This document shows, piece by piece, positions 1-15,773 of a stretch of 32,500 nt of DNA. Each line of letters starts with the position of its first letter. The first letter of the stretch is position 1. The stretch comes from Qipengyuania gaetbuli (GTDB taxonomy: Bacteria; Pseudomonadota; Alphaproteobacteria; Sphingomonadales; Sphingomonadaceae). The notes beneath the pieces are model-generated. The model made no database searches and was not told the origin of the DNA. It saw only the letters and a list, made by a program, of their open reading frames with translations. The stretch covers positions 1 to 32,500 of the forward strand of contig NZ_WTYF01000003.1 of the NCBI RefSeq assembly GCF_009827315.1, written 5' to 3'. A program made the translations under genes and the position numbers.

Positions 1-2
1 CG

Positions 3-21
3 ACCCGATTGGGGACATTTC
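3..21. repeat. Degenerate dispersed repeat, copy 1
   Basis: ACCCGATTGGGGACATTTC here matches 710-728 (ACCCCATTGCGGACATTCC) at 16 of 19 positions. The two copies flank the membrane protein gene at 39-548. Related GTCCGC / CGGAC-rich pieces occur at about 599-625, 649-672, 2109-2136 and 2169-2215. All lie in non-coding DNA of the accessory region. The function is unknown. Confidence 0.4.
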
Positions 22-38
22 TGGGGCGCGCGTTAGCC

Positions 39-548: not shown

Positions 549-789
549 GGTCCATCTCCCACTCAAAGGAGCTACCTGCCACAAACAGAAGCAAGAGCAA
601 TGTCCGCAATCCACCCCAATGGCGGTCTTACAAGAGCCTTGGAGGCCATGCTGAGAGCGGACAGGCCGCTTTGTCCCTAGACGGGCAAATAGCGGCTAGT
701 CAGCTTACGACCCCATTGCGGACATTCCAAAGCAATTCTCTCGCGATCAATTGCTTGCGTTTGCAATACACTAAGAGCAGTTACGACTG
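549..789. other. Intergenic region with degenerate repeat pieces
   Basis: These 241 bases separate two divergent genes. They contain GTCCGC/CGGAC-type repeat pieces at about 599-625 and 649-672, and the clearest copy at 710-728 (ACCCCATTGCGGACATTCC). I see no convincing sigma-70 promoter and no gene. Short ORFs across it on both strands lack ribosome binding sites. Confidence 0.5.
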
Positions 790-2028: not shown

Positions 2029-2564
2029 CCCTGCCCGCAGGCCAAACGGGATGGCTACACTGATGCAATTGGCAACCCGGTTACGGCCGTTTCCTGTTAG
2101 ATGGAAGCGTCCGCTTTCCACCCATAATCGGACGTTGGCGGTGCTCATTGCTGGAGCAAAGCTGCCGGTCCGCTTTCAGGTATTCTCAGGGGGCCCTGAA
2201 CGTCCGGAATGAGGGCGCATTGCTGCCCAACAGCTTTCGGCATGAGCAGTCTGACGGCAGTGGGGCCGCTTGCGGGCCCTCCGCTACTAGGGCGAACGCC
2301 TGGAAAGCGGACTCGGCGCATCGCCCAAATGCTTTCTCCCTCGGTCTCAGTGGTCGAAGAAGCTCTTCGCTACAAATTTGTTGGTCCGGGTCTGGCAGCG
2401 AGATTGCGAGCTTGCCCTCTCTTACTCCTGTATTTCAACCACCTTTTAGTTTGATTCGGTCGCCAAGAAAGCGGCGCTGTCGTAAAGTGCTCCGATGCAA
2501 CTACGGCAGATATCAAACACCATCAGTGCATGCTGGCTTTCCCTTACTATTGCGGGTGGCAGCA
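2029..2564. other. Long intergenic region before the NTPase-nuclease gene
   Basis: These 536 bases carry no gene I can support. The open frame running in from 2148 is in frame with the next gene, but its translation (serine- and arginine-rich, no domain) looks like read-through of non-coding DNA. Degenerate repeat pieces lie at 2109-2136 (GTCCGCTTTCCACCC followed by CGGACGTT) and 2169-2215 (GTCCGCTTTC, then CGTCCGGAATGAGGG). No good promoter was found; TACTAT at 2545-2550 is the only -10-like box near the start. Confidence 0.5.
2109..2215. repeat. Two degenerate GTCCGCTTTC repeat units
   Basis: GTCCGCTTTC occurs at 2109-2118 and again at 2169-2178. Each is followed 12-25 bases later by a CGGACGTT- or CGTCCGGAAT-like half. 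The second half resembles the 710-728 element in direct or inverted form. This looks like a decayed family of short interspersed elements; no coding content. Confidence 0.35.
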
Positions 2565-5500
2565 ATGATTGACCGTCCCGTACCGTTGGAGCGCCGTTTC
2601 GAAGCGGTCTCGCAAGATGTCGATGAAGCGCAGACAGCCGACTATCTGGAGATGATGGGTTACGGTAAGCCGATAGGCTGGCCGCAAATCGACGCGCGCT
2701 ACAGGACGGTTGTTCTGGCTGCGGGCGGAGCAGGGAAAACGTTCGAGTTCGAAGCCCGCGCCAGATATCTCGATGAACAAGGCCGCTATTCCTTCTTCAT
2801 TCGCATCGAGGATATCGAAGGGGATTTCGAAACGGCTTTCGAAATCGGCGATGCGGCGGCGTTCGAGAAGTGGCGCTTGTCGTCCGGAGAAGCATGGTTC
2901 TTTCTCGACTCGGTCGATGAGGCCCAGCTCAGCCATCCGCGCGCCTTTGAAAAAGCGCTGCGGGCATTCGGAGCCAAGATCGCGGGCGCACAGGATCGCG
3001 CGCATATCTGCATTTCCAGCCGGCCCTATGCCTGGCAGCCCCGCCGGGATTTTGACCTCGTGAATAAGCTGTTCCCATCGGTACAGCTGAAACAGGAGCC
3101 GACCGGGCAGGATGTCGATCCGGACGAAAAAGCGGCAACCGAAGGCACCGGCTTGAAGGTGTTTCAGCTCAAGCCGCTGGATATGGACGAGATACGTCTT
3201 TTTGCCGCGCACCGCTCGGCATCGAGGATCGACGATTTCGTAACGGCTATCGAACGCGCTGATGTTATGGACCAGGCCGGACGGCCGTTCGATCTGGAGG
3301 GCTTAATTGCCAAATGGAACAGCGATGGCGCATTGGGCGGCAGGCTGGCACTTCTTCAGAACGATATCAACGTGCGCCTGCGGGAAATCAGGCCGACGCG
3401 AGAGGCGCAGCAGCCGCTCGATCTTGAACGCGCCCGCGAAGGAGCAAGATTGCTCGCGGCAGCAGTCCTACTCACCGGCGAGCCGGGCATACATGTTCCT
3501 GATGAAAGTCACGAGAAGCCCGGAATCGATGGCGCGGAGCTATTGGCGGGTTGGGGCGATCAAAAAGATATTCGGGCGCTTCTCGAACGTCCATTGTTCA
3601 ATGATGTGCTGTATGGAATGGTGCGTTTTCGTCACCGCGACGTGCGCGAACTGCTGGCGGCCGAGTGGTTCGAAAGCCTGCTTAAAAAGGGCCATCGCCA
3701 CGCGGTAGAAGCCCTCATCTTCCGCGAGCAATATGGTGAGCAGATCATCACGCTGCGGCTACGCCCGATCTTGCCTTGGCTGGCCCTGTCCGACGCAGAG
3801 ATACGCAGCAAGGTTCTCGCTCTCGAGCCCGAAATTGCGATGGAAGGCGGCGATGTCGCCCGCCTGCCGATCAGTGAGCGTCGCAAATTGCTGCACAATG
3901 TTATCGAGCGCCTTATCAGCGGCGAAGGCAGCCGGTCGGTTAGCGACAACAGCGCCATCGCCCGGATCGCGCAGGAAGACCTCGCAGGCGATGCTCTGAA
4001 ACTGATCGAAAAATACGCCGATCATGACGACGCGATATTCTTTCTCGGCCGGCTCGTCTGGCAGGGAGATATGAAGGCCTGCGTGCCCGCCTTGCTGCGT
4101 ATTGCGGCAAATAGTGAGCGCGGGAAATACGCCCGTATCGCTGCGACCCGCGCGGTCATGACATGCGGTGATGCCGAACAGAAGCAGCGTCTGTGGGCTG
4201 CGCTAAAGGACTCTGCCGACGAGCTGCCTCGCGAACTGCTGTCGGAAGTCATTCTGAATTCCGCTGCGGATGGAGGGACGGTCGGGTTGCTTCTTGCCGG
4301 GCTGGAGAAGCTGCCGCCATACGAGCGTTTCGAAGCATCCGGCCTTACCCAGGCGATGCATGGCCTGATCGAACGGATGCCGGTCCATAAGAAGGACGCA
4401 GGCGGGCAGCCGCTGTCGGACCTGGTCGCCGGCCTCAACGCATTTCTCGAACGCGAGCCGCATATGGAGCGCCGCGAATGCCGCGTGTCGGAAGACCATG
4501 CCTGGCTGCTCGCGCATGTCAGCCACGCCGCCGAAAGGCTGGTCTCGGCGCAGGTCGATGCCGCGCTGTCGGACGATGTGATCTCCGTCATGCTCAAGAT
4601 CCCCGCCGTGCGTTTCTGGCGATCGGGGGATATCGACGAATATAGCACCAAATTGCATGAGCTGGTCCCGGCCTGGCACGAACTGAATGACAAATTGTTA
4701 TGGGCCAGCATTCATCAGGCGCGTGAACGAATGGAAACCAAGGATCAGCGTCTGACCACTCATCGTCAGGTCGCTTGGCTTGGGCATTACTGGAAATTTG
4801 GGCTCGAGCGCTTCGACGATGTGTTGGGCTTCATCCGCGACAATGTAGGTGGTCATCCCGACGACCCGCAGGTGGCGCTGTCGCTTGCCTTTCATATCTA
4901 TCTCGATGCCGGAAGGCCACAACCCTTGCTGGACGCGCTGCAGGAGGCTGTTGCGGGCGATCCGGTGCTGGAAACCTATCTGGCAAACTGTCTCAATCCT
5001 CAGGAATCCGAGGCAATGCGGCAAATGCGCGAGGACTCGCTCTCGCGCAAACAGAAGAGCGCGAAGGAAAAGGAAGAGCAGCAGCGCAATCGCTCCAAAT
5101 GGATTACCCGGATAAAGGCCAACCCGGATGTCGTTCGCGATCCGCCTGGTCTGAAACCCGATGAGTTCAGCAATGACCAATATTGGTTGATGCAGGAAAT
5201 CGAAAGGGACGAAAGCCGTGTCAGCCGGGGCGAAGCCGCCAGCAACTGGCGTTTCCTAATACCCGAATTCGGCGAAGAGGTTGCCCGCGCGTTTCGCGAT
5301 GCGGCAATTGCCTTCTGGCGGGCTTACAAACCCGGACTGCGCTCCGAAGGGGCCGACACCAGCACGATCCCCTATGCACTGATTTTCGCGATGACCGGCC
5401 TCTCTATAGAAGCGCAAGAGCGCGAGGATTTTCCGTCGGGCCTGGACCCCGAAGAGGTCGATCAGGCACTGCGATATCTGACCTCGGAGCTCAACGGCTT

Positions 5501-6890
5501 CCCCGAATGGCTGGAGAGTTTTTACACGGTCTTTCCCGAGCGGGTGTTGGCGGCGGTTCACAAGGAACTCGATTGGGAGCTCGACAATAGCGGCCCCGAC
5601 ACTGCGCATCACCATATTCTCCACGATCTGGTCTACTACGGATCATGGCTCCATGGCGCATTGGCACCGCGCCTGATCGAGCGTTTCATGTCGCAGAATT
5701 TTCCCAACGACGATGTGTTGCGCCATGTCCTGAACATCCTTGCAGGCGGCAAGACCGATCCGGCCAAGCTGCTGCAACTTGCCAAGCGGGGCATTGCCGC
5801 AAAGCCGGGATCGAACCGGCTTGCAACCTGGTACGCGCTGTGGGTCGACCTCGAACCGGAGACCGGAATTCCGGCTCTGGAAAGATGGTTGGCAAGCCTC
5901 AAAGCGCGCGAGGCCAAGGAGGTGGCCCAAAGCTTCATCACGCGGCTGGTCGGAACGCGCGGTATGCGCAGGGAAATCGAGCTTGGCGCGGGCAATTTCA
6001 AACAGCCGGCCCATCTGAAGTCGCTCTACGTCCTGATGCACAAATATATCCGCGCAAGTGAGGATATCGACCGCGTCGGTGGCGGCGTTTACTCGCCCGA
6101 GCTGCGCGACGATGCGCAGGACGCCCGCGATATGCTGTTCAACCTGCTGGTCGAGATGCCCGGCAAGGAGAGCTATATCGCGATCACGGAACTGATAACC
6201 GAGCATCCCGACGCGAGCTTTCGCGATTGGATGACGCACCAGGCACGCAAACGTGCGGTTCTCGATGGTGATCTGCCGCCCTGGACGGTCGAGCAAGTCC
6301 GCGAGTTCGGCAGGTCGCTGACGCTCGTTCCTACAACTAACCGCGAACTGTTCGAACAAGGTGTATTGCAGCTTCGGGAACTCAAGCACTGGCTCGAACA
6401 GGGCAATGAGAGCCCCTATGCCGCTTGGCAGGCGGTCAAGGGCGAGACGAAAATTCGCGGTCTGGTGGCCGGCGAGCTCAATCGGCGCGGGAAAACACTC
6501 TTCCGCTGCGCACAGGAGAACGAGTTTCCCAATCGTCAGCGGCCCGACATCTGGCTCTTGAACAACGATGTGCCGGCCCCGGTACCGATAGAGCTCAAGG
6601 TGCTTGATGAAGGCTGGAGCGGCCCCAAACTATGCGAACGGCTGCGCAATCAACTGGTGGGCGATTATCTGCGCGAGGACGGCGCGGAATGCGGCATCAT
6701 GCTGCTGGTCTGGCAGGGCCGGGCAGGGGCCAAGCAGTGGCGCATCGACGGCAAATTGGTGTCGCTCGACGAGCTTGCTGATGCCCTGAAACGATACTGG
6801 TCCAGCATCGCCAACGACTATCCGGGCGTATCGGCGATCGACGTCGTTGTCATCAACCTCACCCGGCGGGCGTCGAAGGCGGATGACTAA
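2565..6890 (+). CDS. NACHT/STAND-like NTPase with C-terminal PD-(D/E)XK nuclease-like domain
   Basis: The 1441-residue protein begins with an NTPase domain. Walker A is AAGGAGKT (52-59), Walker B is FFLDSVDEA (112-120), and a sensor-like CISSRP follows. FRHRDVRELLAAEW (355-368) matches the F-x-H-x-x-x-x-E-h-x-A-A motif that ends the helical part of NACHT/STAND ATPases. About 900 mostly helical residues follow, including a Lys/Glu-rich coil near 820-850. The C-terminus has RPD (1326-1328), then IELK (1342-1345) and QLVGDYL, the layout of a PD-(D/E)XK nuclease core. STAND proteins with nucleases commonly defend against phage or plasmids by self-destructive DNA cleavage; that role is inferred here. 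The nuclease is C-terminal, unlike the N-terminal effectors of Avs proteins. The ATG at 2565 is chosen because homology-like sequence starts there; its ribosome binding site (GGGTGG) is weak. The gene stands alone in the accessory region. Confidence 0.8.
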   Translation: MIDRPVPLERRFEAVSQDVDEAQTADYLEMMGYGKPIGWPQIDARYRTVVLAAGGAGKTFEFEARARYLDEQGRYSFFIRIEDIEGDFETAFEIGDAAAFEKWRLSSGEAWFFLDSVDEAQLSHPRAFEKALRAFGAKIAGAQDRAHICISSRPYAWQPRRDFDLVNKLFPSVQLKQEPTGQDVDPDEKAATEGTGLKVFQLKPLDMDEIRLFAAHRSASRIDDFVTAIERADVMDQAGRPFDLEGLIAKWNSDGALGGRLALLQNDINVRLREIRPTREAQQPLDLERAREGARLLAAAVLLTGEPGIHVPDESHEKPGIDGAELLAGWGDQKDIRALLERPLFNDVLYGMVRFRHRDVRELLAAEWFESLLKKGHRHAVEALIFREQYGEQIITLRLRPILPWLALSDAEIRSKVLALEPEIAMEGGDVARLPISERRKLLHNVIERLISGEGSRSVSDNSAIARIAQEDLAGDALKLIEKYADHDDAIFFLGRLVWQGDMKACVPALLRIAANSERGKYARIAATRAVMTCGDAEQKQRLWAALKDSADELPRELLSEVILNSAADGGTVGLLLAGLEKLPPYERFEASGLTQAMHGLIERMPVHKKDAGGQPLSDLVAGLNAFLEREPHMERRECRVSEDHAWLLAHVSHAAERLVSAQVDAALSDDVISVMLKIPAVRFWRSGDIDEYSTKLHELVPAWHELNDKLLWASIHQARERMETKDQRLTTHRQVAWLGHYWKFGLERFDDVLGFIRDNVGGHPDDPQVALSLAFHIYLDAGRPQPLLDALQEAVAGDPVLETYLANCLNPQESEAMRQMREDSLSRKQKSAKEKEEQQRNRSKWITRIKANPDVVRDPPGLKPDEFSNDQYWLMQEIERDESRVSRGEAASNWRFLIPEFGEEVARAFRDAAIAFWRAYKPGLRSEGADTSTIPYALIFAMTGLSIEAQEREDFPSGLDPEEVDQALRYLTSELNGFPEWLESFYTVFPERVLAAVHKELDWELDNSGPDTAHHHILHDLVYYGSWLHGALAPRLIERFMSQNFPNDDVLRHVLNILAGGKTDPAKLLQLAKRGIAAKPGSNRLATWYALWVDLEPETGIPALERWLASLKAREAKEVAQSFITRLVGTRGMRREIELGAGNFKQPAHLKSLYVLMHKYIRASEDIDRVGGGVYSPELRDDAQDARDMLFNLLVEMPGKESYIAITELITEHPDASFRDWMTHQARKRAVLDGDLPPWTVEQVREFGRSLTLVPTTNRELFEQGVLQLRELKHWLEQGNESPYAAWQAVKGETKIRGLVAGELNRRGKTLFRCAQENEFPNRQRPDIWLLNNDVPAPVPIELKVLDEGWSGPKLCERLRNQLVGDYLREDGAECGIMLLVWQGRAGAKQWRIDGKLVSLDELADALKRYWSSIANDYPGVSAIDVVVINLTRRASKADD

Positions 6891-7187
6891 AGGCTGGCGC
6901 ATTCGAGAGCGTGCGAAGCGTGCTCTATCGCTTCTAACAGATTGAGCGGCAGATTTTTGGGATGACTTAGATGCCACCTAGATGTCCGATATGGGGGCGC
7001 AAAGCTGACAAGCTTCTGGCTATATCGACGCCTTTTCTCGGCCCGGTTCCGCATTGCCGAACTAGCTTTGTCCCCATGGACACAAGCATAGAAAGCGTCG
7101 GTGACTGACCACGGGAAAGATGCTCTTCGAGCAGTCCGAAAGCGCGCGAATTCGCACCAAAACGAACTATTGAACTGAGTCTCTAAA
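6891..7187. other. Intergenic stretch, no supported gene
   Basis: This stretch holds a weak hairpin just after the NTPase stop (arms AGAGC 6906-6910 and GCTCT 6922-6926, no T-run). A 108-codon minus-strand frame (6887-7213) covers it, but its product resembles nothing and it would run through the promoter/operator at 7188-7216. I do not call it a gene. Confidence 0.4.
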
Positions 7188-7203
7188 TTGACCCGAGGGT
7201 CAA
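7188..7203. promoter_or_regulatory. Palindromic operator O1
   Basis: TTGACCC-GA-GGGTCAA is a perfect 7-base inverted repeat with a 2-base spacer. It overlaps the -35 box of the promoter at 7188-7216, so a bound dimer would block RNA polymerase. A close relative lies at 7790-7805, before the AlpA-RT operon. The likeliest binder is a regulator encoded in this element, such as the AlpA-like protein; that is inference. Confidence 0.55.
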
Positions 7204-7216
7204 ATTCCTGCATAAT
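7188..7216 (+). promoter_or_regulatory. Sigma-70-type promoter for the 149-residue gene
   Basis: The -35 box TTGACC (7188-7193) and -10 box CATAAT (7211-7216) are 17 bases apart, the optimal spacing. Transcription would start near 7223 and give a leader of roughly 138 bases before the ATG at 7361. The leader contains a perfect 12-base palindrome CCGCACGTGCGG at 7277-7288. Confidence 0.55.
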
Positions 7217-7360
7217 GGAGCCTCATCCAGAGAAGGTATTTCCTCACCAACCTGTCCGTTCCGGATAAGGTGGTTTCCGCACGTGCGGGATGTGGTCCTA
7301 GCGCAATCATCGGAATAGCAGCATTGCAAGCGATGCCTTCTCCAAGCCCAGGAGAATGGA

Positions 7361-7810
7361 ATGCACCAATCGCAAATAGAGTTGATCGTTGGATGCCGCG
7401 CAGAGAACGTGTGCGGTCAGTGGATCGAATGCACGATCTCCCTGGATCAGGAAGACAGATTCCTGTTTCAGGCGGATCTTTGTCGCCAATGCCCAGACGA
7501 TGATTTTTCCCTCTATAGATTGCAGGAGGAGGTAAATCTGCCCCTGACTGCAGAGTTGGTCTTGGGCCTATTGGTCTTGGTGGCTCAATCACCGTTCTAC
7601 CCAACCGAAGCCGGCTTCTCGGTCTCGATTGCAGGGGAAAGCCCCTCCGCGAATCGGGCAGCGATTCGGATGCTCGAACCTAAAGTTCGGGCATCTTTTC
7701 ACGTCCAGGATGTGCCGCGACAGATCTGTGAAAGTATCAGCAGAAAGTTATCTCGCATAGCCAAGTATCGAGAAACACAGTGTTTAGTTTTGACCCTGGG
7801 TTCAATTTGA
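7361..7810 (+). CDS. Hypothetical protein, 149 residues, accessory region
   Basis: I do not recognise this soluble protein. It has four cysteines (including CRQC near 41-44) in the first third, a hydrophobic leucine-rich segment near residues 60-78 (LPLTAELVLGLLVLVAQ), and a basic C-terminal third. There is no signal peptide and no obvious helix-turn-helix or catalytic motif. The start is well supported: AGGAG lies about 7 bases before the ATG at 7361. A good sigma-70 promoter with an overlapping palindromic operator lies 145 bases upstream. Its last codons overlap the second copy of that operator, which precedes the AlpA-RT operon. The shared operator links it functionally to that operon, perhaps as a partner or antagonist. 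It could also be a cargo gene that only shares the regulator. Confidence 0.6.
   Translation: MHQSQIELIVGCRAENVCGQWIECTISLDQEDRFLFQADLCRQCPDDDFSLYRLQEEVNLPLTAELVLGLLVLVAQSPFYPTEAGFSVSIAGESPSANRAAIRMLEPKVRASFHVQDVPRQICESISRKLSRIAKYRETQCLVLTLGSI
7790..7805. promoter_or_regulatory. Palindromic operator O2
   Basis: TTGACCC-TG-GGTTCAA has the same left arm, length and spacer as the site at 7188-7203, and differs in the spacer and two right-arm bases. It covers the last codons of the upstream gene and sits about 15-33 bases before the extended -10 box at 7820-7828, a position suited to repression or activation of the AlpA-RT operon. Confidence 0.5.
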
Positions 7811-7828
7811 CTAAGTATCTGATATAAT
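7801..7828 (+). promoter_or_regulatory. Extended -10 promoter of the AlpA-RT operon
   Basis: TGATATAAT at 7820-7828 is a perfect extended -10 (TG-n-TATAAT). The best -35 candidate is weak (TTCAAT, 7801-7806, 16-base spacing), which fits the extended -10 class. Transcription would start near 7835, about 40 bases before the AlpA start. Confidence 0.5.
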
Positions 7829-7875
7829 GTAGTTTTTATTGGACAGGGCGGAAATTTTCTGCATGCTTTATTGGC

Positions 7876-8100
7876 ATGAGCAAGAAGCCCTACAAACAGG
7901 ACCGTATCCTTCGCCGCCCGGAAGTCGAGCGGCTGACCGGACTTCGCAAGTCGACCATCTACCATCTCATGTCCGAAGGACTGTTCCCGAGGCCTATCCG
8001 ACTCGGCAGGCGCGCTGTTGGCTGGCGTAGGTCGGAGTTGACCGATTGGAACATCGCCCGCCCCCGCGGCGGAAGTTTTGCACCCGGGGACAATGCATGA
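7876..8100 (+). CDS. AlpA-family helix-turn-helix regulator
   Basis: The 74-residue protein matches the AlpA/prophage-regulator layout: RILRRPEVERLTGL, then the recognition-helix region RKSTIYHLMSEGLFPRPIRLG, then AVGWRRSELTDW. AlpA proteins are small winged-helix DNA-binding proteins, commonly found in prophages and integrative elements where they control excision or neighbouring genes. The ATG at 7876 has no strong Shine-Dalgarno, but the conserved region starts near residue 10, so the start is plausible. The stop overlaps the start of the reverse-transcriptase-like gene as ATGA (8097-8100), so the two are probably translationally coupled. It may bind the TTGACCC palindromes at 7188 and 7790 and so control its own operon; this is inferred from position only. 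Confidence 0.85.
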   Translation: MSKKPYKQDRILRRPEVERLTGLRKSTIYHLMSEGLFPRPIRLGRRAVGWRRSELTDWNIARPRGGSFAPGDNA

Positions 8101-9365
8101 AGACCTGGGGCAGAATTACCCGAGCTAAGAAGCTTTCTCTCGCGAACGTAGCGCACGCGGCAGCTGGCGGAGATGTGCAGCGAGCCCTTGATCTAGCTCG
8201 TTCCCACATTCGCCGAACGAGTGTGAAAGCCCACGCCTTTCGTAGGGCGACGAACTTCGGAGCAAGCAATCTCTACGCCACTCTGGAGCGTGCATCGTGT
8301 CTGGACCTATTCCGACCGGAGCCGCGCCCCATCGCTTGGCGGTACGAGGAAAAGAGGCGCGGGCGCTACCGAATTGTCTGCGACCCGCCGGTAGCAGTGC
8401 GCGTTGGTCAGCTCATAGCGAAGGAACTGCTGCGAGCTCAGTGGAACGCTCGACCGCACATCTTCGAATGGCCGGGTCACGGCGGCTGCCAAGGCGCGGT
8501 TGCGGCAGTGCGTGACGCACTCAACACTCATGGGCGCTACGTTGTGAGTGCGGACATCCGCGACTGCTATCCAACGTTCAACCCAGACTATCTCTACACC
8601 ACCAACATGCTCCCGCCTGAGTTTGTCGCAACTATGCTGGATAGTCGCCAGTTCAGGTACAGGGTCAAAGGGGATATTCCTTCCTCCATTGACCATACGG
8701 AGCAGACGCGCCCCCGGGGGCTTATGCAGGGCGGGGCGGCTTCCAGCACCTTCCTCGCTATCGCATTCGACGACCTTCCCGAGCACATGCCGGACGGTGT
8801 TGTACCGATCGTTTTTTCGGACAATATCATTCTGATCTGCCGGTCGGAAGTCGACTGCGAAGCCGCCGCCACCTCCCTCGGTCGGTATTTGGACGACAAC
8901 CCGGCGGGCGCGTTTTCTCCTTCGATCGAATTGGCTTGGGTCAGGTGTCACGCCGAGGATGCGGATAATCCGCACGCAGCGTCCCTTCCTCGTTCCTTCG
9001 AACAACTTGGCTATTGTTTCTGCACCAATAGCGCGGGCGACTGCATTGCAGTCCCCTCGGCTGCGAACGAACGCAAAGCCTGGCTGCGTGGGGCCCACTA
9101 CATTGCGGGGCAATCGCGCGGCCTTTCGCAGACGCCGACATTCCAGGACATCGTCCAGGAGGTGCTCGTCGGCTTCCCAGCGCGCTCTCCTGAAGCAGAC
9201 GAATATTTTGCCGGTGTTATGGAGCCAGAATACGTCGCTGTTTGCCGTGCGAGGCGGATGGTGGCCACGGGATCGACGCCCGATGGCTATGTCTGGATCG
9301 ATGGGCTCCCAGTGCGAAACCGCACCCGTAAGCCTCCCGCGCCACCTTGGACCTGTGAGGCATGA
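8097..9365 (+). CDS. Reverse-transcriptase-like protein with FSDN catalytic motif
   Basis: The 422-residue protein shows the reverse transcriptase blocks in order. RT1 appears as EKRRGRYRIVCDPP followed by VRVGQLIAKELL (85-112). Motif A is VVSADIRDCYPTF with Asp153. Motif B is RGLMQGGAASS (207-217). Motif C is IVFSDNIILICRS with Asp242, and the thumb-proximal block is FEQLGYCF (301-308). The usual YADD box is FSDN, so the first catalytic Asp is kept and the second is Asn. No intron maturase, HNH or integrase domain is seen, and I found no retron RNA or template/variable repeat pair. It therefore fits no RT class I can name; it could be an uncharacterised defence or element-borne RT. The start at 8097 is chosen for the ATGA overlap with alpA and the preceding GGGGA. 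The frame is open 51 bases further upstream, but that part overlaps alpA. Confidence 0.82.
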   Translation: MKTWGRITRAKKLSLANVAHAAAGGDVQRALDLARSHIRRTSVKAHAFRRATNFGASNLYATLERASCLDLFRPEPRPIAWRYEEKRRGRYRIVCDPPVAVRVGQLIAKELLRAQWNARPHIFEWPGHGGCQGAVAAVRDALNTHGRYVVSADIRDCYPTFNPDYLYTTNMLPPEFVATMLDSRQFRYRVKGDIPSSIDHTEQTRPRGLMQGGAASSTFLAIAFDDLPEHMPDGVVPIVFSDNIILICRSEVDCEAAATSLGRYLDDNPAGAFSPSIELAWVRCHAEDADNPHAASLPRSFEQLGYCFCTNSAGDCIAVPSAANERKAWLRGAHYIAGQSRGLSQTPTFQDIVQEVLVGFPARSPEADEYFAGVMEPEYVAVCRARRMVATGSTPDGYVWIDGLPVRNRTRKPPAPPWTCEA

Positions 9366-9721
9366 CTCGCCGCGCAGGATGGACCGAAGAAAGGCGAGAG
9401 CGCCAGCGGCAAGCGATTCAATGCTGGCGACCGTGGGATAAGTCGACCGGCCCCCGGACAAAAGAGGGCAAGGAGCGCTCGTCGCGGAACGCGACGCGCG
9501 AGCGAGAACTCCGGGAGGTTGAGACCTATATGCAACTGCTTAGCCTGCGGCGCGAAAGGGACGCAGGCGCACTCGGCGGCAAGATGCCATCCCCCGAACG
9601 TATGACTTGGTTGCAGGATGAGATCGCAGCCCTCGAAGCCGCTCTCGATCCGGATTCGGGCCTCGCCGAATTTCTTGCAGAATCCACCGAAAACGATGAT
9701 GATGCGTTTGACCCGATGTAA
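9362..9721 (+). CDS. Small STGPRT-motif protein, third gene of the AlpA-RT operon
   Basis: This 119-residue hydrophilic protein overlaps the RT stop as ATGA (9362-9365). The N-terminal half is very basic: WTEERRERQRQAIQCWRPW, then STGPRTKEGKERSSRNA (28-44). STGPRT-x-EGK-x-x-S-x-x-NA is a motif I have seen in many short proteins of bacteria and mobile elements, without known function. The C-terminal half is acidic and helical and ends ENDDDAFDPM. A basic head with an acidic tail suggests nucleic-acid or protein binding, possibly as a partner of the RT. The tight coupling suggests production in fixed ratio with it. Confidence 0.65.
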   Translation: MTRRAGWTEERRERQRQAIQCWRPWDKSTGPRTKEGKERSSRNATRERELREVETYMQLLSLRRERDAGALGGKMPSPERMTWLQDEIAALEAALDPDSGLAEFLAESTENDDDAFDPM

Positions 9722-9739
9722 CGCGCCGGAATTGTTGCG

Positions 9740-9759
9740 TTGTGGGGAAAATTGTGGGG
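9740..9759. repeat. Direct repeats TTGTGGGG beside tRNA-Ser
   Basis: TTGTGGGG occurs at 9740-9747 and 9752-9759, a 12-base period, about 60 bases from the tRNA 3' end. Short direct repeats in this position are typical of arm-type integrase binding sites next to an attachment site. No integrase gene is adjacent, so this is suggestive only. Confidence 0.35.
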
Positions 9760-9816
9760 GTGGCCTCCGGCTACAACGAAAAGTTCTCCACTTTTCAGGT
9801 GCATGCCTAGAAATGA

Positions 9817-9908
9817 TGGCGGAGACGGAGGGATTCGAACCCTCGATACCCGTTACCAGGTATGGCTCCTTAGCAGGGAGCTGGTTTCAGCCACTCACCC
9901 ACGTCTCC
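9817..9908 (-). tRNA. tRNA-Ser(GCU)
   Basis: The minus strand folds as a class II tRNA. The acceptor stem is GGAGACG with CGTCTCC and the discriminator base is G. The CCA tail is encoded in the DNA (9817-9819). The anticodon loop is CTGCTAA with anticodon GCT, the variable arm is long (TACC...GGTA), and the T loop is GGTTCGAATCC. The 3' end faces the accessory region to the left, the orientation expected if an integrative element entered at the tRNA 3' end. Confidence 0.95.
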
Positions 9909-9937
9909 GCATCGCAAGCCTCGGCTGCGAGGGGCGC

Positions 9938-9966
9938 GCTATAGCTAGGGGGGCACCGGCCATCAA
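9938..9966 (-). promoter_or_regulatory. Promoter of tRNA-Ser
   Basis: On the minus strand TTGATG (9961-9966) and TATAGC (9938-9943) are exactly 17 bases apart, about 30 bases before the mature tRNA. The region after the -10 is GC-rich (GCGCGCCCC), as expected of a stringently controlled stable-RNA promoter. Confidence 0.6.
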
Positions 9967-10132
9967 GTGCAATTCCTCCTTCCACGATTCACCGCTTCCC
10001 GGACTCGGTTCGGCGCGAATCCGATTCGGTTCATCGCCCTGTCATTGCCCGCCTGCTTGAAAGCGATTCTCCTGTCGCAGGTGACCTTCGTTGGCGCGCC
10101 TGCGGGCAGGGTCACGGGAAGGGAATATCGAG

Positions 10133-10927
10133 ATGAATACGGCACGCAGCATCCTAGTTAGCCTGGCCGCAGGGCTCGGCCTGCTTGCGACGCCCCTTGC
10201 GGCACAGGTCGAAACGGTCGATCCCGATGCCGCCTATGAAGCGGTCATCGACGGCGACCTGGAAGAGGCGCCGGGCGAGCCTTCGCCTTACGCGGACCCC
10301 GACACGCAGCCGACCATCGTGCTGCCCGAATTCGAGGACGAGGCTACTCCGGTCGAATCCGGCGCCCCGCCGGTCTGGTCCGAACAGTCCGCCGAAGAGG
10401 CAGCATCCGCCCGCGTCGCGAGCGCCAATATCGACGATCCGTCCACCACCTACCGCGAGGATGACCTCATCGGCGCGGCAGAGGGCGTGTTCGGCAAGGG
10501 CGCCGAAGGCCTGGCGCAGATGATCAAGAAACTGCTCGCCGACCAGGGCGAGCCAAACGGCTATATCGTCGGCCGCGAGGCAGGCGGCGCTTTCGTCGTC
10601 GGCGCGCGCTACGGTTCGGGCACGCTGTTCCACAAGGTGGAAGGCGAGATGCCGGTCTATTGGACCGGCCCGTCGATCGGCTTCGATGCCGGGGCGAACG
10701 CCGGCAGCACTTTCGTGCTGGTCTACAACCTCTACGACACGGAAGAGCTTTACGAGCGCTTCCCCGCCGCGGAAGGCCAAGCCTATCTGATCGGCGGCCT
10801 CACCGCGAGTTACGTGCGCAAGGGCGATGTCGTCCTCATTCCGATCCGCATGGGTGCCGGGCTCCGGCTCGGCGTCAACGCGGGCTACATGCGTTTTTCC
10901 AAGAAGCAGCGCTGGCTGCCGTTCTGA
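10133..10927 (+). CDS. EipA-family (DUF1134) envelope protein
   Basis: The 264-residue protein has a signal peptide (MNTARSILVSLAAGLGLLATPLAAQ) and an acidic, proline-rich linker to about residue 110. A well-conserved DUF1134 domain follows (YREDDLIGAAEGVFGKGAEGLA through FSKKQRWLPF). DUF1134 includes Brucella EipA, a periplasmic protein needed for cell-envelope integrity. The glycine-rich C-terminal half (GYIVGREAGGAFVVGARYGSGTL, WTGPSIGFDAGANAGS) is the family core. The ATG at 10133 is chosen over 10091 because it starts the signal peptide and GGGAA precedes it. It is monocistronic, with a strong terminator at 10983-11018. Confidence 0.85.
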   Translation: MNTARSILVSLAAGLGLLATPLAAQVETVDPDAAYEAVIDGDLEEAPGEPSPYADPDTQPTIVLPEFEDEATPVESGAPPVWSEQSAEEAASARVASANIDDPSTTYREDDLIGAAEGVFGKGAEGLAQMIKKLLADQGEPNGYIVGREAGGAFVVGARYGSGTLFHKVEGEMPVYWTGPSIGFDAGANAGSTFVLVYNLYDTEELYERFPAAEGQAYLIGGLTASYVRKGDVVLIPIRMGAGLRLGVNAGYMRFSKKQRWLPF

Positions 10928-10982
10928 GCCCCCAAAGGGCTGCCCCGAGCAGAGGTCGCACTCACAACAAGGGCTCCTATAC

Positions 10983-11018
10983 GGGCCGCAACCGAATTCC
11001 GGTTGCGGCCCTTCGTTT
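10983..11018 (+). terminator. Rho-independent terminator after the eipA-like gene
   Basis: A perfect 12-base-pair stem (GGGCCGCAACCG with CGGTTGCGGCCC) closes a 5-base loop and is followed by the T-rich TTCGTTTGTT. The aminotransferase start lies only 21 bases further on. Confidence 0.85.
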
Positions 11019-11038
11019 GTTGGGCGAAAGGGGCGCCC

Positions 11039-12220
11039 ATGCTCGATACACTTGACGCCCAGCCGCCAGACGCCCTCCTTGCCCTGATCAAAATGTACGC
11101 CGCCGACGAGCGCGCGGACAAGATCGACCTCGGCGTTGGGGTCTATCGCACCAATGAAGGCGCGACCCCGGTTTTCCGGGCGATCAAGCAGGCCGAACAG
11201 CGCCTGATCGACGAGCAGGACAGCAAATCCTATCTCGGCCCCGAAGGCGATACCGGCTTCGTGGAGGTGCTGCGCCCCTACATCTTCGGCAAGGACTGCC
11301 AGCTGACCGACCGCATCGGCGGCATGCAGACGCCGGGCGGCACGGGCGCAGTCCGGCTTGCCGTGGCGCTGGCCGCCAAGGCGGGCGTCACGCGCATCCA
11401 TCTCGGCATTCCCAGCTGGCCGAACCATGCCCAGATCCTCGATGACGTGGGCGTCGAAACCGTTCCCTTTCGCCATGCAACGCCCGAAGGCACGGCCGAT
11501 CTCGATGCCGTGCTCGGCGCGATCCGCACTGCCGGCCCCAAGGACGCGGTCCTGCTACACGGCTGCTGCCACAACCCGACCGGCATCGACTACACCGATG
11601 CGGAGTGGGGCGAGATTGCGAAGGCCTTCGCCGAAACCGGCGTGCTGCCGATCCTCGACATCGCCTATCAGGGCCTCGGCCACGGGATGGAGGAAGACGT
11701 CGCCGGTGTGCGCATCGTGCTGGATGCCGTGCCCGAAGCGCTGGTCGCCTACAGCTGCGACAAGAACTTCGGCCTCTACCGCGACCGCGTGGGTGCCTTC
11801 TATATGATGGCGAAGGAACCGGCGCAGCTGGCGGCCATCGTGTCGAATGCCAATGCGCTGGCCCGTGCGAACTGGTCGATGCCGCCCGATCACGGCGGCG
11901 CAGCGGTTCGCGTGGCGCTGAGCGACGCGGGCATGACGCAGGTCTGGCTGGACGAGCTCGACGAGATGCGCGCCCGCATGCGCCGCGTCCGCGACCGGCT
12001 GGCCGCCGCCGACAACGAAGTGCCGGGCCTCGGCCTTGCCGCGCTGGCCCAGCAGAACGGCCTGTTCGCCATGCTGCCGCTGTCCAAGGAGCAGATCACC
12101 AGCCTGCGGGAAGACCATGCCATCTACATGGCAGGATCGGGCCGGATCAACGTGGCCGGTCTCCATGCGGGCAATACCGACAAGTTCATCGCCGCGCTGG
12201 CCGACGTCACCAAGGGCTGA
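11039..12220 (+). CDS. Aromatic amino acid / aspartate aminotransferase, class I
   Basis: The 393-residue protein belongs to the PLP-dependent AspC/TyrB family, which transfers amino groups between aspartate or aromatic amino acids and 2-oxoglutarate. Family landmarks are LGVGVYRTNEGATPVFRAI (43-61), YLGPEGDTGF, the CHNPTGIDY loop, the LDIAYQGLGHG segment, and the PLP lysine in SCDKNFGLYRDRVGAF (Lys242). SGRINVAGL near the C-terminus belongs to the substrate-binding part. Length is normal for AspC/TyrB. Sequence alone does not separate aspartate from tyrosine preference. The ATG at 11039 fits the family N-terminus and has AAAGGGG upstream. The acetyltransferase gene follows after 6 bases, so they form an operon. 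Confidence 0.9.
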   Translation: MLDTLDAQPPDALLALIKMYAADERADKIDLGVGVYRTNEGATPVFRAIKQAEQRLIDEQDSKSYLGPEGDTGFVEVLRPYIFGKDCQLTDRIGGMQTPGGTGAVRLAVALAAKAGVTRIHLGIPSWPNHAQILDDVGVETVPFRHATPEGTADLDAVLGAIRTAGPKDAVLLHGCCHNPTGIDYTDAEWGEIAKAFAETGVLPILDIAYQGLGHGMEEDVAGVRIVLDAVPEALVAYSCDKNFGLYRDRVGAFYMMAKEPAQLAAIVSNANALARANWSMPPDHGGAAVRVALSDAGMTQVWLDELDEMRARMRRVRDRLAAADNEVPGLGLAALAQQNGLFAMLPLSKEQITSLREDHAIYMAGSGRINVAGLHAGNTDKFIAALADVTKG

Positions 12221-12226
12221 AGGCAC

Positions 12227-12766
12227 ATGGACCGGCAGCCGACCCTCGAGACCGAGCGGCTGCTGATCCGCCCGATGGCGCAAGACGACCGCGAGGCGCT
12301 CTTCGCGGTCGCCTCCGATCCGATGGTTTGGGAGCAGCATCCCATCCACGACCGCTGGCGGCGCGAGGTCTTCGACCGTTTTTTCGACGAATGCCTTGCC
12401 AGCGGTGGCGGCCTTGCTGTCATCCGCAAGGACACCGGCCGCGTGGTCGGCGCATCGCGCTATGACGTGTACGACCCCGAAGAGGGCGGCGTGGTCGAGA
12501 TCGGCTGGACCTATCTCGAACGCGCCTGCTGGGGGAAGGGCATCAACACCGAGATGAAGCGGGCCATGCTCGCCCATGCGCTGTCGCAGGTGGCGGTGGT
12601 CGAGTTCCGCGTGGGCGACACCAACTACCGTTCGCGCAACGCGCTCGAGGCCATCGGGGCGGAGCGCACGCGCAGCTACGAGGTCGACCGGTACCAGGGC
12701 AAGCGCGTGGTGCATCTGGTCTACGAGATCACCCGCGAGAGCTTCGCGTCAGGGCCACTGGCCTGA
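12227..12766 (+). CDS. GNAT-family N-acetyltransferase (RimJ/RimL type)
   Basis: The 179-residue protein has the GNAT acetyltransferase_3 layout: LETERLLIRPMAQDD at the N-terminus, a central VEIGWTYLERACWGKGINTEMK (acetyl-CoA loop, with W-G-K-G-I-N in place of the classic Q/R-x-x-G-x-G/A), then VEFRVGDTNYRSRNALEAIGAER, the motif B helix. Such proteins use acetyl-CoA to modify protein N-termini, small amines or antibiotics; the substrate here is unknown. It follows the aminotransferase by 6 bases with GAAGG just upstream, so the two are co-transcribed. It is followed by a long structured non-coding region. Confidence 0.8.
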   Translation: MDRQPTLETERLLIRPMAQDDREALFAVASDPMVWEQHPIHDRWRREVFDRFFDECLASGGGLAVIRKDTGRVVGASRYDVYDPEEGGVVEIGWTYLERACWGKGINTEMKRAMLAHALSQVAVVEFRVGDTNYRSRNALEAIGAERTRSYEVDRYQGKRVVHLVYEITRESFASGPLA

Positions 12767-12807
12767 TGTAGGATTGCGGCAGGACTTGCCGCAGGCAGGC
12801 TCCTACA
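12767..12807. repeat. Nested inverted repeat after the acetyltransferase gene
   Basis: The outer arms are TGTAGGA (12767-12773) and TCCTACA (12801-12807). An inner perfect 7-base pair, TGCGGCA with TGCCGCA, closes a 5-base loop. It starts directly after the acetyltransferase stop codon and is not followed by a T-run. It may be a weak terminator or an mRNA 3'-end structure. Confidence 0.4.
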
Positions 12808-13228
12808 GGCTGGAACACTTGGAACACGGTCCTGGCGGGAAAAACCTGGGACCTGTGCGAGATGCCGTTTTCGGTCGGTTTCGGGGTGGAATGCGGGCGA
12901 CGACATAGCCCGGTATCGTGCAGATTCGCGCCCGGTAGGAAACCCACGCGCAGCCTGCGATAAAGCCGTCCCCGGCTCGGTTCATCGCAGACTGTGCCCG
13001 AACCGCCCCCTGTGGTAACGGGGTATGCGAGGCTGTTAATAGGCTCGCAAGGTAGGCTTGCGCACGGGCTTCGCGGGCGGCGGTTCGTCTGTCCGTCCCA
13101 ACCAAAGCGATAAGAACCTACCAATTTGACGCGAAGGGGCTCTGACGGCCGGCGGGAATATCAGGGGAGCAGCGGTGCCAGCGGTACCGGACCTGCGTCG
13201 CCGGACGGTCAATCGAAGGAGCAAGATT
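12808..13228. other. Long non-coding region before the OmpA-family gene
   Basis: About 420 bases hold no gene I can support; the short frames lack ribosome binding sites. There are several dyads: GGTCC...GGACC around 12829-12853, TGCGAG...CTCGCA around 13025-13049, and a GC-rich palindrome-like stretch near 13005. The tandem GGAACAC at 12812-12826 does not fit a LexA box. The promoter of the OmpA-family gene must lie here, but I cannot place it. Confidence 0.45.
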
Positions 13229-14110
13229 ATGAAGTTCATTTCCAAGAGCGCTGTCGCCATTGCCGCGGTCAGCATGCTTGCCGTGCCGGTCGCCGGCGTT
13301 TCGGCACAGAATTACGACCAGCAGGAAGGCGAAGTGCTGACGACCGTTTATGGTGCAGCCCCGGCCGACCTGTCGGACATGCCGAAAGGCCCGGAAGTCG
13401 AAGGCATCATCTCGGCCCGCAAGGACGACAAGATCCAGGTCACGACCGCCGACGGCAACCGCACCGTGGTGACGCTCAGCGCGGCCACCGAAGTGCGTAG
13501 CAGCGGCGGCTTCCTCGGCCTCGACCGAGACAAGCTGGGGGCAGAAGCCCTGCTCAACGGCCTGCCGGTCACCGTGGAAACTGTCCAGTGGGGCGACCGC
13601 GGGCTGATCGCTGCCAAGGTCGCGGTCAAGAACAAGGACCTCAAGACCGCGCAGATGATCCAGAACGGTACCGACCAGCGCTTCACCGCCAATGAAGCGG
13701 CCACCGACGCGCTGCGCAGCCGTGTCGCCGACATCGACCAGTACAACGTCAAGGGCACGACCAACGTCTATTTCGACACCGGCAAGTACAACCTGTCGGA
13801 CGATGCGCGCCGCGACCTGTGCGATGCTGCCAACCAGGCGAATGCGACGGACAACGCGCTGCTTCTCGTGGTCGGCTACACCGATTCCACCGGCGATTAC
13901 GAGTTCAACCAGGAACTCAGCGAAAAGCGCGCCAGCCGCGTCGTGAACTACCTGCAGCAGCAGTGCGGCTGGAAGCCGTATCGCATGCTGACGCCGACGG
14001 GCATGGCTGAAGCCGACCCGGCAGCGGACAATTCGACCGAGGAAGGCAAGGCGCAGAACCGCCGCGTTGCCGTCAACATCCTCGTCAGCAAGAGCGTCGA
14101 CGGCCTCTAA
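13229..14110 (+). CDS. OmpA-family outer membrane / peptidoglycan-binding protein
   Basis: The 293-residue protein has a signal peptide (MKFISKSAVAIAAVSMLAVPVAGVSA). A middle domain of about 120 residues includes EGIISARKDDKIQVTTADG and VTLSAATEVRSSGG. The C-terminal OmpA-like domain spans about residues 175-290, with NVYFDTGKYNLSDDARRDL, VVGYTDSTGDYEFNQELSEKRA and NRRVAVNI. OmpA-like domains bind diaminopimelate in peptidoglycan; the TDSTGD and N-R-R-V residues of the fold are present. No beta-barrel is seen, so it is probably periplasmic or envelope-associated. The ATG at 13229 is chosen for AAGGAG 7-8 bases upstream and the signal peptide, not the longer frame from 13175. It is monocistronic with a strong terminator. 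Confidence 0.88.
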   Translation: MKFISKSAVAIAAVSMLAVPVAGVSAQNYDQQEGEVLTTVYGAAPADLSDMPKGPEVEGIISARKDDKIQVTTADGNRTVVTLSAATEVRSSGGFLGLDRDKLGAEALLNGLPVTVETVQWGDRGLIAAKVAVKNKDLKTAQMIQNGTDQRFTANEAATDALRSRVADIDQYNVKGTTNVYFDTGKYNLSDDARRDLCDAANQANATDNALLLVVGYTDSTGDYEFNQELSEKRASRVVNYLQQQCGWKPYRMLTPTGMAEADPAADNSTEEGKAQNRRVAVNILVSKSVDGL

Positions 14111-14136
14111 GGCCCGGCGCACAGCTTCGACTTCCG

Positions 14137-14172
14137 AGCGGGGCGGGCCATTGCGGCCTGCCCCGCTTTTTC
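14137..14172 (+). terminator. Rho-independent terminator after the OmpA-family gene
   Basis: A 13-pair stem with one G-T pair (AGCGGGGCGGGCC with GGCCTGCCCCGCT) closes a short loop and is followed by TTTTTCTTT. Confidence 0.88.
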
Positions 14173-14243
14173 TTTGTGCCGCCACCCCATTGCGCAGACG
14201 CGTTCGGGTGTTAGTCTTGCCCCCAATCACAGGGGAGATGATG

Positions 14244-15758
14244 ATGGTGCGGCTGACGACTTCATTCGGCGCGGTGGCGCTGCTGGCCTTCGCGGCTATT
14301 CCGGCGAATGCGGAAACGCCTGACCGTGACGAGATCCTCGGCACTGTGGTCGAACAGCGCGGGGCGACGGTGCAGGCGCTGCGCGACTGGATCGCCCTGC
14401 CGACCATCGCGGCGGAAAAGCGCAACACCACTGAAGGCGCGGAATACATGCGCAAGCTCGCGCTCGATGCAGGCTTCAAGCACGCCGAGATCATTCCTAC
14501 CGACGGCGTGCCGGGCGTGTTCGCCACGCTCGATGCGGGGGCCGACACCACGCTCGGCATCTATTTCATGTACGACGTGAAGCAGTACGACCCTGCAGAA
14601 TGGAGCTCGCCTCCGCTCGAAGGCAGGCTGGTCGACCGTCCGGGCGAAGGGCAGGCCATCATGGGGCGCGGCGCGGTCAACCAGAAGGGGCCCCAGACGG
14701 CATTCCTCGCCGCGATCAAGGCGATCCAGGCCAGCGGGCGCAAGCTGCCCGTCAACCTCGTGCTCGTGGCCGAGGGCGAGGAAGAGGTCGCCTCGACCAA
14801 TTTCCACCAGGTCGTTGCCGTGCCGCAGGTGCGCGAAGCCCTGTCCAAGACCATCGGCGTCTTCATCCCTTCTGCCGCGCAGAGCAAGGACGGCAGTGCC
14901 AACATCACGCTGGGGGCCAAGGGCGCGATCGAGTTCCAGCTGGTCGTGGGCGGCGAGACGTCGGACAAATATCCCAAGACCGATATCCACTCCTCCAACC
15001 ATGCGCGCATCGAAAGCCCCGTCTGGCGGCTGGTGAAGGCGCTCGACACGCTGGTCGCGGATGACGGGCACACGCCGGCCATCGACGGCTGGTTCGAAAA
15101 CGTGCGCCCGCTGACCGAGCGGCAAAAAGAGCTGATCGCGCAAGGTGCCAAGCTCAATCCCGAATCGGAAGTGAAGGCGCTGCTGGGCGTGGGCCGGTGG
15201 ATCGACGACGAACCCTATGTCACCAGCCTGGAGCGGCTGGTTTCGCAGCCCACGGTCAATATCCAGGGGTTGGTGGCAGGCTACATGGGGCCGGGCGGCA
15301 AGACCGTGCTGCCGGGCCGCGCGGAGGCGAAGCTGGAATTCCGCCTGGTGCCCGCGATGACCAAGGACGAGGCCGTGAGCAAGCTCAAGGCCCACCTCAC
15401 CAAGCGCGGCTTCGACGATGTGCAGGTGACGATTTCGGGCGGCTATGGCCCCAACGAGACCGAAGAGGACAGCACGCTGATCCGCGCGCAGAAGAAGCTC
15501 TTCGAACAGTCGGGCATCCCCTATTCGATCACGCCGCGCAGCGCGGGCAGCTGGCCGGGGGTCATCTTCAACGGCGCGCCGCTCAACCTGCCGGCCTCGC
15601 AGTTCGGCCTGAGCCGCGGGGGCGGGGCCCATGCGCCGAACGAATGGTTCCTGATCGAAAGTAGCGACCCCAAGGTGAACGGCATCGACGGGGCCACAAT
15701 GGCCTATGTCGATTATCTCTATGTGGTGGCGGAAGAGGCCGAAAGCGCCGCCGACTGA
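14244..15758 (+). CDS. Secreted M20-family metallopeptidase homologue with altered metal ligands
   Basis: The 504-residue protein has a signal peptide (VRLTTSFGAVALLAFAAIPANA) and the M20/M28-like dipeptidase fold. It keeps the VAEGEEEVAS motif (catalytic base and ligand Glu179/180), the dimerisation domain and a C-terminal GGAHAPNEW with the late metal His. Two canonical ligands differ. The H-x-D motif reads M109-Y-D111, and the bridging Asp of GRG-x-x-D-x-KG is Asn146 (GRGAVNQKG). It may be a conserved subfamily with another metal set, or an inactive homologue. Three ATG codons lie in a row (14238, 14241, 14244). The last is preferred because AGGGGAG (14231-14237) is then about 6 bases away. 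It converges with ribE. Confidence 0.8.
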   Translation: MVRLTTSFGAVALLAFAAIPANAETPDRDEILGTVVEQRGATVQALRDWIALPTIAAEKRNTTEGAEYMRKLALDAGFKHAEIIPTDGVPGVFATLDAGADTTLGIYFMYDVKQYDPAEWSSPPLEGRLVDRPGEGQAIMGRGAVNQKGPQTAFLAAIKAIQASGRKLPVNLVLVAEGEEEVASTNFHQVVAVPQVREALSKTIGVFIPSAAQSKDGSANITLGAKGAIEFQLVVGGETSDKYPKTDIHSSNHARIESPVWRLVKALDTLVADDGHTPAIDGWFENVRPLTERQKELIAQGAKLNPESEVKALLGVGRWIDDEPYVTSLERLVSQPTVNIQGLVAGYMGPGGKTVLPGRAEAKLEFRLVPAMTKDEAVSKLKAHLTKRGFDDVQVTISGGYGPNETEEDSTLIRAQKKLFEQSGIPYSITPRSAGSWPGVIFNGAPLNLPASQFGLSRGGGAHAPNEWFLIESSDPKVNGIDGATMAYVDYLYVVAEEAESAAD

Positions 15759-15773
15759 CGGCTGCGCGCGAGG

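Follow-up and report, generated by a model that had tools for sequence, protein, structure and literature searches.

The 32,500-nucleotide stretch of DNA analysed here (hereafter the window) is the beginning of contig NZ_WTYF01000003.1 of Qipengyuania gaetbuli (assembly GCF_009827315.1, positions 1 to 32,500 of the forward strand), and holds a three-gene operon beside a serine transfer RNA (tRNA) gene. The middle gene encodes a reverse transcriptase (RT) that, judged by its sequence, belongs to an apparently undescribed lineage, found here in Alphaproteobacteria. The features of the locus are as follows:

7876..8100, + strand: AlpA-family (MerR/HTH_17-like) excisionase/regulator, 74 aa; PF05930 Phage_AlpA at 7.6e-21, PHROG excisionase families
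8097..9365, + strand: RT, 422 aa; RVT_1 at 2.7e-7; fold nearest to group II RTs
9362..9721, + strand: STGPRT protein, 119 aa; an open reading frame (ORF) with homologues, aligned; no assigned function
9817..9908, - strand: tRNA-Ser(gct), from ARAGORN and Rfam; the boundary of the island, on the attR side, lies at its 3' end (9817)

The gene order, the two ATGA overlaps and the distance of about 95 bases to tRNA-Ser, all pointed out in an initial annotation of this DNA, were reproduced from the sequence, the ORFs and ARAGORN. By sequence and ORF list, alpA runs from the ATG at 7876 to a TGA stop at 8098-8100, the RT gene from the ATG at 8097-8099 to a stop at 9363-9365, and the STGPRT ORF from the ATG at 9362-9364 to a stop at 9719-9721, with ATGA as the overlap sequence at both junctions and 95 bases (9722-9816) between the last stop and tRNA-Ser(gct). 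ATGA overlaps per se are commonplace in the operons of bacteria. The RVT_1 score of the RT (30.9 bits) is barely above the cut-off of 29.6, and the STGPRT protein has no Pfam, PADLOC, NCBIfam or PHROGs match at E ≤ 1; protein searches returned 11 homologues of the RT (the window's own cluster among them) and six of the STGPRT protein (one at 97% identity), and because homologues of both exist we take both ORFs to be real genes.

The lineage was delineated by profile searches that covered genomes of the window's class, the Alphaproteobacteria, and its distant RT members came from whole-genome searches in small, partly self-trained sets; many are 14-25% identical to the window RT. Of 296 family genomes, 13 have an RT scoring above 200 bits, and most of these had gone into the training of the profile. 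When the diverse alignment A5 served as the protein query, three proteins (P0018-P0020) were added from the 7998 candidates sharing most words, which alone were scored. The tree separated the lineage from 16 other RTs with 100/100 support; these 16 are without reference members of most UG, Abi, retron and diversity-generating retroelement (DGR) classes, and a placement in the full RT tree is not given by them. The tree leaves out L188, L189, L191, L196, L199, L201, the second RT of L074 (L numbers denote loci), and the proteins P0001 (the window's own cluster), P0003, P0010, P0011, P0019 and P0020.

In keeping with the initial annotation, no class model tested fits the window RT. Its best PADLOC score is 26.7 bits, to a generic RT model, and the best scores of the 14 of 23 lineage RTs scanned range from 22 to 62 bits with no clear class; the RT of L200, by comparison, reached 442.8 bits against UG17 over residues 18-451. 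Identity with DRT10 (UG17) was rejected: PADLOC gives the window RT no match to UG17 at E ≤ 1, and L064 and L071 score 41.6 and 54.7 bits against the 442.8 of L200. UG17 is a weak best or second match for some lineage members, and a UG17 profile scan of 200 genomes matched 65, many of the matches being group II introns by our reading, so that weak UG17 scores mean little. None of the other PADLOC DRT, UG, Abi or retron classes was a clear best match for the window RT or 13 others, and the NCBIfam retron RT models did not match the window RT. We also rejected DGR identity, for which a template/variable repeat pair would be expected near the RT: no direct repeat longer than 22 nt occurs in window positions 1-10300, the stretch covered. 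As a side observation, L200 comes from the bacterial family of the window, and its positions 7734-9095 probably encode an RT of DRT10 type.

The nearest relatives are the RTs of group II introns. By sequence profile the closest solved structure is 6me0_C (E 2.5e-16), and the predicted fold (mean predicted local distance difference test score 76.5) has RTs as its best matches, with the group II structures 6me0_C and 9d4s_A nearest. Against the group II model TIGR04416 (cut-off 300 bits) the window RT scores 32.3, L064 42.5 and L061 66.9, and L011 gives no match; the controls L068 (355.6) and L190 (345.1) pass, and L192, L193 and L200 (121-147) fail. There is no Pfam match to a maturase-type domain in the window RT, and an Rfam scan of the window at gathering thresholds returns tRNA alone, with no intron RNA; a group II intron RT or remnant was rejected on these grounds. 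By PADLOC, NCBIfam, PDB sequence and fold, the window RT is thus nearest to group II RTs yet in no class tested. A phage or plasmid origin was rejected as well: tblastn with the window RT drew a blank in the phage collection, and among plasmids its single match was weak (23%, group II); there, the L064 RT gave two weak group II matches and the L004 RT none. Two scans of viral contigs and a first scan of genome contigs yielded no relative. Among the literature matches listed, in their titles and the beginnings of their abstracts, nothing concerned this lineage or an integrase-excisionase-RT module; a name from the UG/Abi classification may have escaped such a search.

To describe the company that these RTs keep, we compared 23 lineage loci with 19 other RTs from the same searches. 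A tyrosine integrase lies within 4 kb in 17 of the 23 lineage loci (1 of 19 among the other RTs), a serine recombinase within 4.5 kb also in 17 (0 of 19), and one or the other in 21 (1 of 19), the exceptions being the window and L072. An excisionase-like helix-turn-helix (HTH) gene stands directly upstream of the RT in 11/23 lineage loci versus 0/19, its stop often overlapped or abutted by the RT start, and a tRNA lies within 500 bp of the integrase or the RT in 13/23 versus 0/19. The HTH_17 cut-off was passed by five of six sampled HTH genes, that of L016 falling below. These counts are to be read with the make-up of the sets in mind. Most members of the lineage set had served to train the RT profile by which the set was drawn. 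The integrase model was trained on the genome's own integrases and first-round matches, the serine recombinase model on seven family loci and the HTH model on four, and self-trained neighbour models favour recognition in the lineage set over the controls. Neither set includes L188 (a stop inside the RT), L189 or L201 (short RT frames); the controls L073, L076, L171 and L191, with a short flank on one side, were kept among the 19; and because L069 and L070 are near-copies, the number of independent lineage loci is 22. In L061, L065 and L066 a small serine recombinase and two uncharacterized small genes form a recurrent trio by the RT; L010 has the trio too, some 5-6 kb downstream of its RT.

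If the RT lay near integrases by chance alone, as ordinary cargo or as what is left of a group II intron, its group II-like closest structure and fold would be accounted for, and part of the association could come from neighbour models partly trained on lineage loci. This explanation has to contend with the missing maturase domain and intron RNA, with a group II score about 32 bits against a cut-off of 300, and with an integrase association of 17/23 versus 1/19 that extends across RTs often only 14-25% identical to that of the window; we regard it as very improbable.

In five of the 23 lineage loci, direct repeats of a tRNA 3' end, 17-56 bp long, flank the RT, and each of these loci has its own integrase and a second attachment-site (att) copy:

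L011: repeat 46 bp, element span 11.0 kb
L013: repeat 17 bp, element span 12.8 kb
L069: repeat 56 bp (96%), element span 8.4 kb
L070: repeat 42 bp (86%), element span 10.8 kb
L187: repeat 17 bp, element span 9.7 kb

No such repeats surround the RT in the other 18 loci, several of which have no tRNA in the stretch examined; in L010 and L060 a tRNA-Lys fragment lies upstream of the integrase. The pair L069 and L070, from two genera, has 4,227 bp in common at 98.2% identity, comprising in order tRNA-Leu, integrase, a small ORF, HTH gene, RT and serine recombinase. Their remaining common stretches of at least 200 bases are 70-78% identical, and their cargo is different: L069 carries IteA/IteS-like ATPase and protease genes at 4523-7922 (235 of 510 and 97 of 900 bits, below the equivalog cut-offs), and L070 has ATPase- and methyltransferase-like genes by our reading. 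Since the block with the RT is near-identical while the cargo differs, the RT of these two elements belongs to the element backbone.

The window operon likewise adjoins a tRNA. The tRNA-Ser and its right flank are matched in each of the 60 genomes of the genus (its own included; G966 and G969 with short matches alone), and the alignments of nine out of nine same-genus stretches with the window start at 9811-9817, at the 3' end of the tRNA, so that the operon is the tRNA-proximal end of an island with its boundary at this 3' end. The left sides differ between the same-genus stretches compared (L110, L111 and L114 as queries against the others), and the tRNA-Ser site is an integration hotspot. 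In L110 (genome G947, right flank 97% identical), the same tRNA-Ser (16001-16092) holds another island, at 8757-15847, which has a TraI/MobP-like relaxase and, beside the tRNA, an integrase; neither reaches its NCBIfam cut-off. The other end of the window's island has to be sought beyond the window, whose start is a contig end. Contig C1 matches the first 538 bases exactly; the join is only probable, because the ends of contigs C2 (99.7%) and C4 (97.4%) are similar to the window start too. An integrase gene occupies 1655-2821 of C1, and 15 nt of the tRNA-Ser 3' end recur upstream of that gene, at 1508-1522 (E 0.016); if the join is right, the island would be about 20.5 kb long. Upstream of the operon, and probably within the island, lies the following gene:

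2148..6890, + strand: HyoA, NACHT-domain antiphage protein; NF058534 at 1590 bits (cut-off 1200), match from residue 147 (about 2586)

HyoA is probably cargo of the same island; a literature search brought up no paper on HyoA as an antiphage protein. The ends of the genome's four contigs (window 1-616; L119-L123 and L125) have repeats of 500-800 bp in common, together with scattered copies of an approximately 85-bp repeat at 72-93% identity, also met in further members of the genus (L112, L113, L115), which perhaps form a cassette-like array.

Genes of defence type recur near the lineage RTs. Within 9 kb we recognized, by our own reading, HsdR-like genes in 7 of the 23 loci, HsdM-like in 6, Dcm-like in 5 and Vsr-like in 3. 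In L010, at 12787-13398, a gene for an HNH protein like PtuB of retron Ec78 is convergent with an RT whose motif C ends in Asp-Asn, at 32.5 bits against a cut-off of 150. Such neighbours raise the possibility of a backbone-borne defence system, in which a DRT-like antiphage RT of a new class, regulated by the AlpA/HTH protein, would make complementary DNA upon infection. RT-based defence is already known, and HyoA, the IteA/IteS-like genes, the Hsd-like genes of 6-7/23 loci, and a TIR protein and the PtuB-like protein (both far below cut-offs) lie nearby. Moreover, in the part of the source available to us, the DRT10 (UG17) RT is likewise described as sometimes sitting beside a tyrosine recombinase (PMC12632851). 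The window RT differs from DRT10 in having no UG17 match, and no SLATT gene was matched by Pfam among six window proteins scanned. Against such a role, no constant partner effector or non-coding RNA was found by the RT, its commonest neighbours are recombinases, and in L069 and L070 the RT and the recombination genes stay together beside differing cargo. We consider defence a real possibility, less likely than not but close behind the reading that we favour.

The catalytic site of the RT is unusual. Motif A of the window RT reads ADIRDCY (D153) and motif C FSDN (D242), with N243 replacing the second Asp, and motif C is [FSQ]SDN in all 11 close relatives, the window's own cluster included. In an alignment of 47 RTs, Asn occupies the second motif C position in 23 of 31 lineage rows and Asp in the other 8, the Asp members being found in contexts similar to those of the Asn members; all 16 non-lineage RTs have Asp. 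All 25 RTs of A5 keep Asp at the positions of D153 and D242; outside that alignment, the truncated 346-aa relative P0003 has Gly at the motif A Asp. On the tree of the lineage and the 16 other RTs the Asn label requires four changes, three of them forced by strongly supported branches, and two changes in a quick tree built without the motif columns. A single Asn group was rejected by the approximately unbiased test (p 0.00034, on the tree without motif columns, in which long branches are present), and by this test the change from Asp to Asn occurred more than once. Ratios of nonsynonymous to synonymous substitution (Nei-Gojobori) are 0.23 for L012/L059 and 0.26-0.43 for four other pairs, distant pairs being near saturation.

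GDN-type polymerases occur in some RNA viruses. For the Ty1 RT, the part of the report available to us states that the D211N enzyme keeps polymerase activity in vitro at a strongly reduced rate and with a marked preference for Mn2+, and that transposition in vivo is lost (PMC2148107). A treatment of YADD motif variants names YIDD and YVDD types, and no Asn variant was met in the part of it available to us (PMC4244168). By analogy with Ty1 D211N, polymerase activity of the Asp-Asn catalytic site is plausible. It is conceivable instead that the Asp-Asn members are non-catalytic scaffolds which bind RNA or DNA and regulate the expression of integrase, excisionase or cargo; the loss of the second metal-binding Asp in 23/31 rows, more than once, would agree with this, as would the Gly of P0003. 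We think it quite improbable, given the invariant motif A Asp and first motif C Asp in 25/25 RTs, the residual polymerization by Ty1 D211N (PMC2148107, as far as available), and the eight rows that keep Asp in similar contexts.

The third gene does not belong to this wider picture. The initial annotation had proposed that AlpA, RT and STGPRT proteins form one module, in which coupling would fix the stoichiometry, and suggested a search for homologues of all three. Part of that proposal held: the HTH-RT pair recurs, often near tRNAs and integrases, the AlpA/HTH_17 gene directly preceding the RT in the 11 of 23 loci given above. The fixed three-gene composition did not. The N-terminal part of the STGPRT protein, with its motif, was found in 14 of 296 family genomes (five of the matches weak, E >1e-5), mostly without the RT, and only two of the 14 (G000 and G259) are among the 13 genomes with an RT above 200 bits; this part is encoded within 5 kb of the RT in three of the 23 lineage loci (the window, L010 and L066). 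We therefore rejected STGPRT as a constant partner of the RT and place it outside the wider RT module, the full 119-aa form seeming to accompany the RT only in close relatives, judging by two contig sizes (2950 and 11673) that the homologues of both have in common.

Upstream of the operon are candidate regulatory features:

7188..7203: TTGACCC-GA-GGGTCAA, an operator-like palindrome without mismatch; it overlaps the -35 element of a promoter-like site that precedes ORF 7361
7361..7810, + strand: ORF, 149 aa, between the palindromes; no family match
7790..7805: second palindrome copy with one mismatch, 70 bases upstream of alpA

The palindrome TTGACCCNNGGGTCAA thus precedes both ORF 7361 (perfect copy, 7188) and alpA (one mismatch, 7790). 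With up to two mismatches allowed it occurs twice in the window, against a mean of 0.05 in shuffled sequences, none of 100 of which reached two; with up to one mismatch there are three sites in the genome, two of them in the window (two for a reversed control pattern), and none in 11 of 12 other genomes scanned. A single promoter-like site was found in 6800-10100, where shuffles average 1.3. ORF 7361 and the alpA operon likely have a common repressor, as far as these sites can tell, and the product of ORF 7361-7810 is possibly the regulator of the module.

Our favoured reading, held tentatively and a little short of an even chance, is that the RT is an element-encoded polymerase acting in the excision, transfer or maintenance of the element. 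A polymerase role in the element's cycle is preferred on two counts: recombination genes are what most often lies beside the RT, and the RT gene frequently overlaps or abuts an excisionase-like gene. The window operon would be the AlpA-RT part of a tRNA-Ser-targeting integrative element with HyoA as defence cargo. Because the RT gene overlaps the excisionase-like gene, the RT would be made when the element is activated. It would then polymerize for the element's cycle, for instance by copying element RNA or a single DNA strand, in a role like that of PolB in pipolins; with Asn at the position of the second Asp, the enzyme would still polymerize, slowly and with a preference for Mn2+. In a bolder version, which we think unlikely, these would be RT-driven integrative elements, a bacterial counterpart of the tyrosine-recombinase retroelements or of pipolins, in which an RT with a natural Asp-Asn catalytic pair, translationally coupled to the excisionase, makes DNA of or for the excised element, for example from an element RNA or by conversion of a single strand, before the integrase inserts it at a tRNA gene.

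Several observations weigh against the RT being a polymerase of the element cycle. There is no integrase within 4 kb in 6 of the 23 lineage loci, that of L062 is a truncated 204-aa fragment, and 12/23 are without the upstream HTH gene, which in L014 lies downstream. The exchange of cargo around a constant RT block is known from one pair of elements. The Q. gaetbuli genome has seven tyrosine-recombinase matches, none of them in the window, the candidate lying on C1, whose join is probable; and a search with 24 nt of the tRNA 3' end at up to three mismatches found other copies at three places on C4 and missed the C1 copy. Failure to fit a class is not peculiar to the lineage, the generic model being the best match also of the control RTs L192-L195 (of unclear class, at 111-143 bits). 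No structured non-coding RNA was detected by the RT module, no 120-nt stretch having a z score below -1.8 in three stretches, in what is a weak test. Finally, RT-based defence is known, and these elements hold cargo of defence type.

Among known systems, the group II intron RT/maturases and the group II-like RTs (G2L4) are nearest to the window RT by sequence profile and fold; the window RT is set apart by its SDN motif C and its AlpA and tRNA neighbours, and lacks the maturase domain and intron RNA. Pipolins have a tyrosine recombinase and a tRNA target. They are described, in the part of the source at hand, as integrative elements encoding their own polymerase, PolB (PMC7385651). Here, in contrast, the polymerase is an RT, and replication of the element by it is a proposal drawn by analogy. 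Eukaryotic tyrosine-recombinase retrotransposons (DIRS-like) combine an RT and a tyrosine recombinase in one element, according to the portion of the source available (PMC6681497). The elements described here are bacterial, have the two in separate genes, target tRNA 3' ends and show no sign of movement through RNA. AlpA and tRNA targets are familiar from P4-like satellites and tRNA islands. We know of none with an RT directly behind AlpA. Such satellites and genomic islands are hotspots of antiviral genes, as stated in the portion of the source available (PMC9122126).

An as yet unplaced group of bacterial RTs is thus tied to recombination modules in elements that target tRNAs, and genes of defence type are found in several of these elements. 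In this lineage the second catalytic Asp of an RT has been naturally replaced by Asn, more than once by the tree test, which makes the tolerance of RT chemistry for this change directly testable, and the association suggests that the life cycle of integrative elements includes a step carried out by a polymerase.
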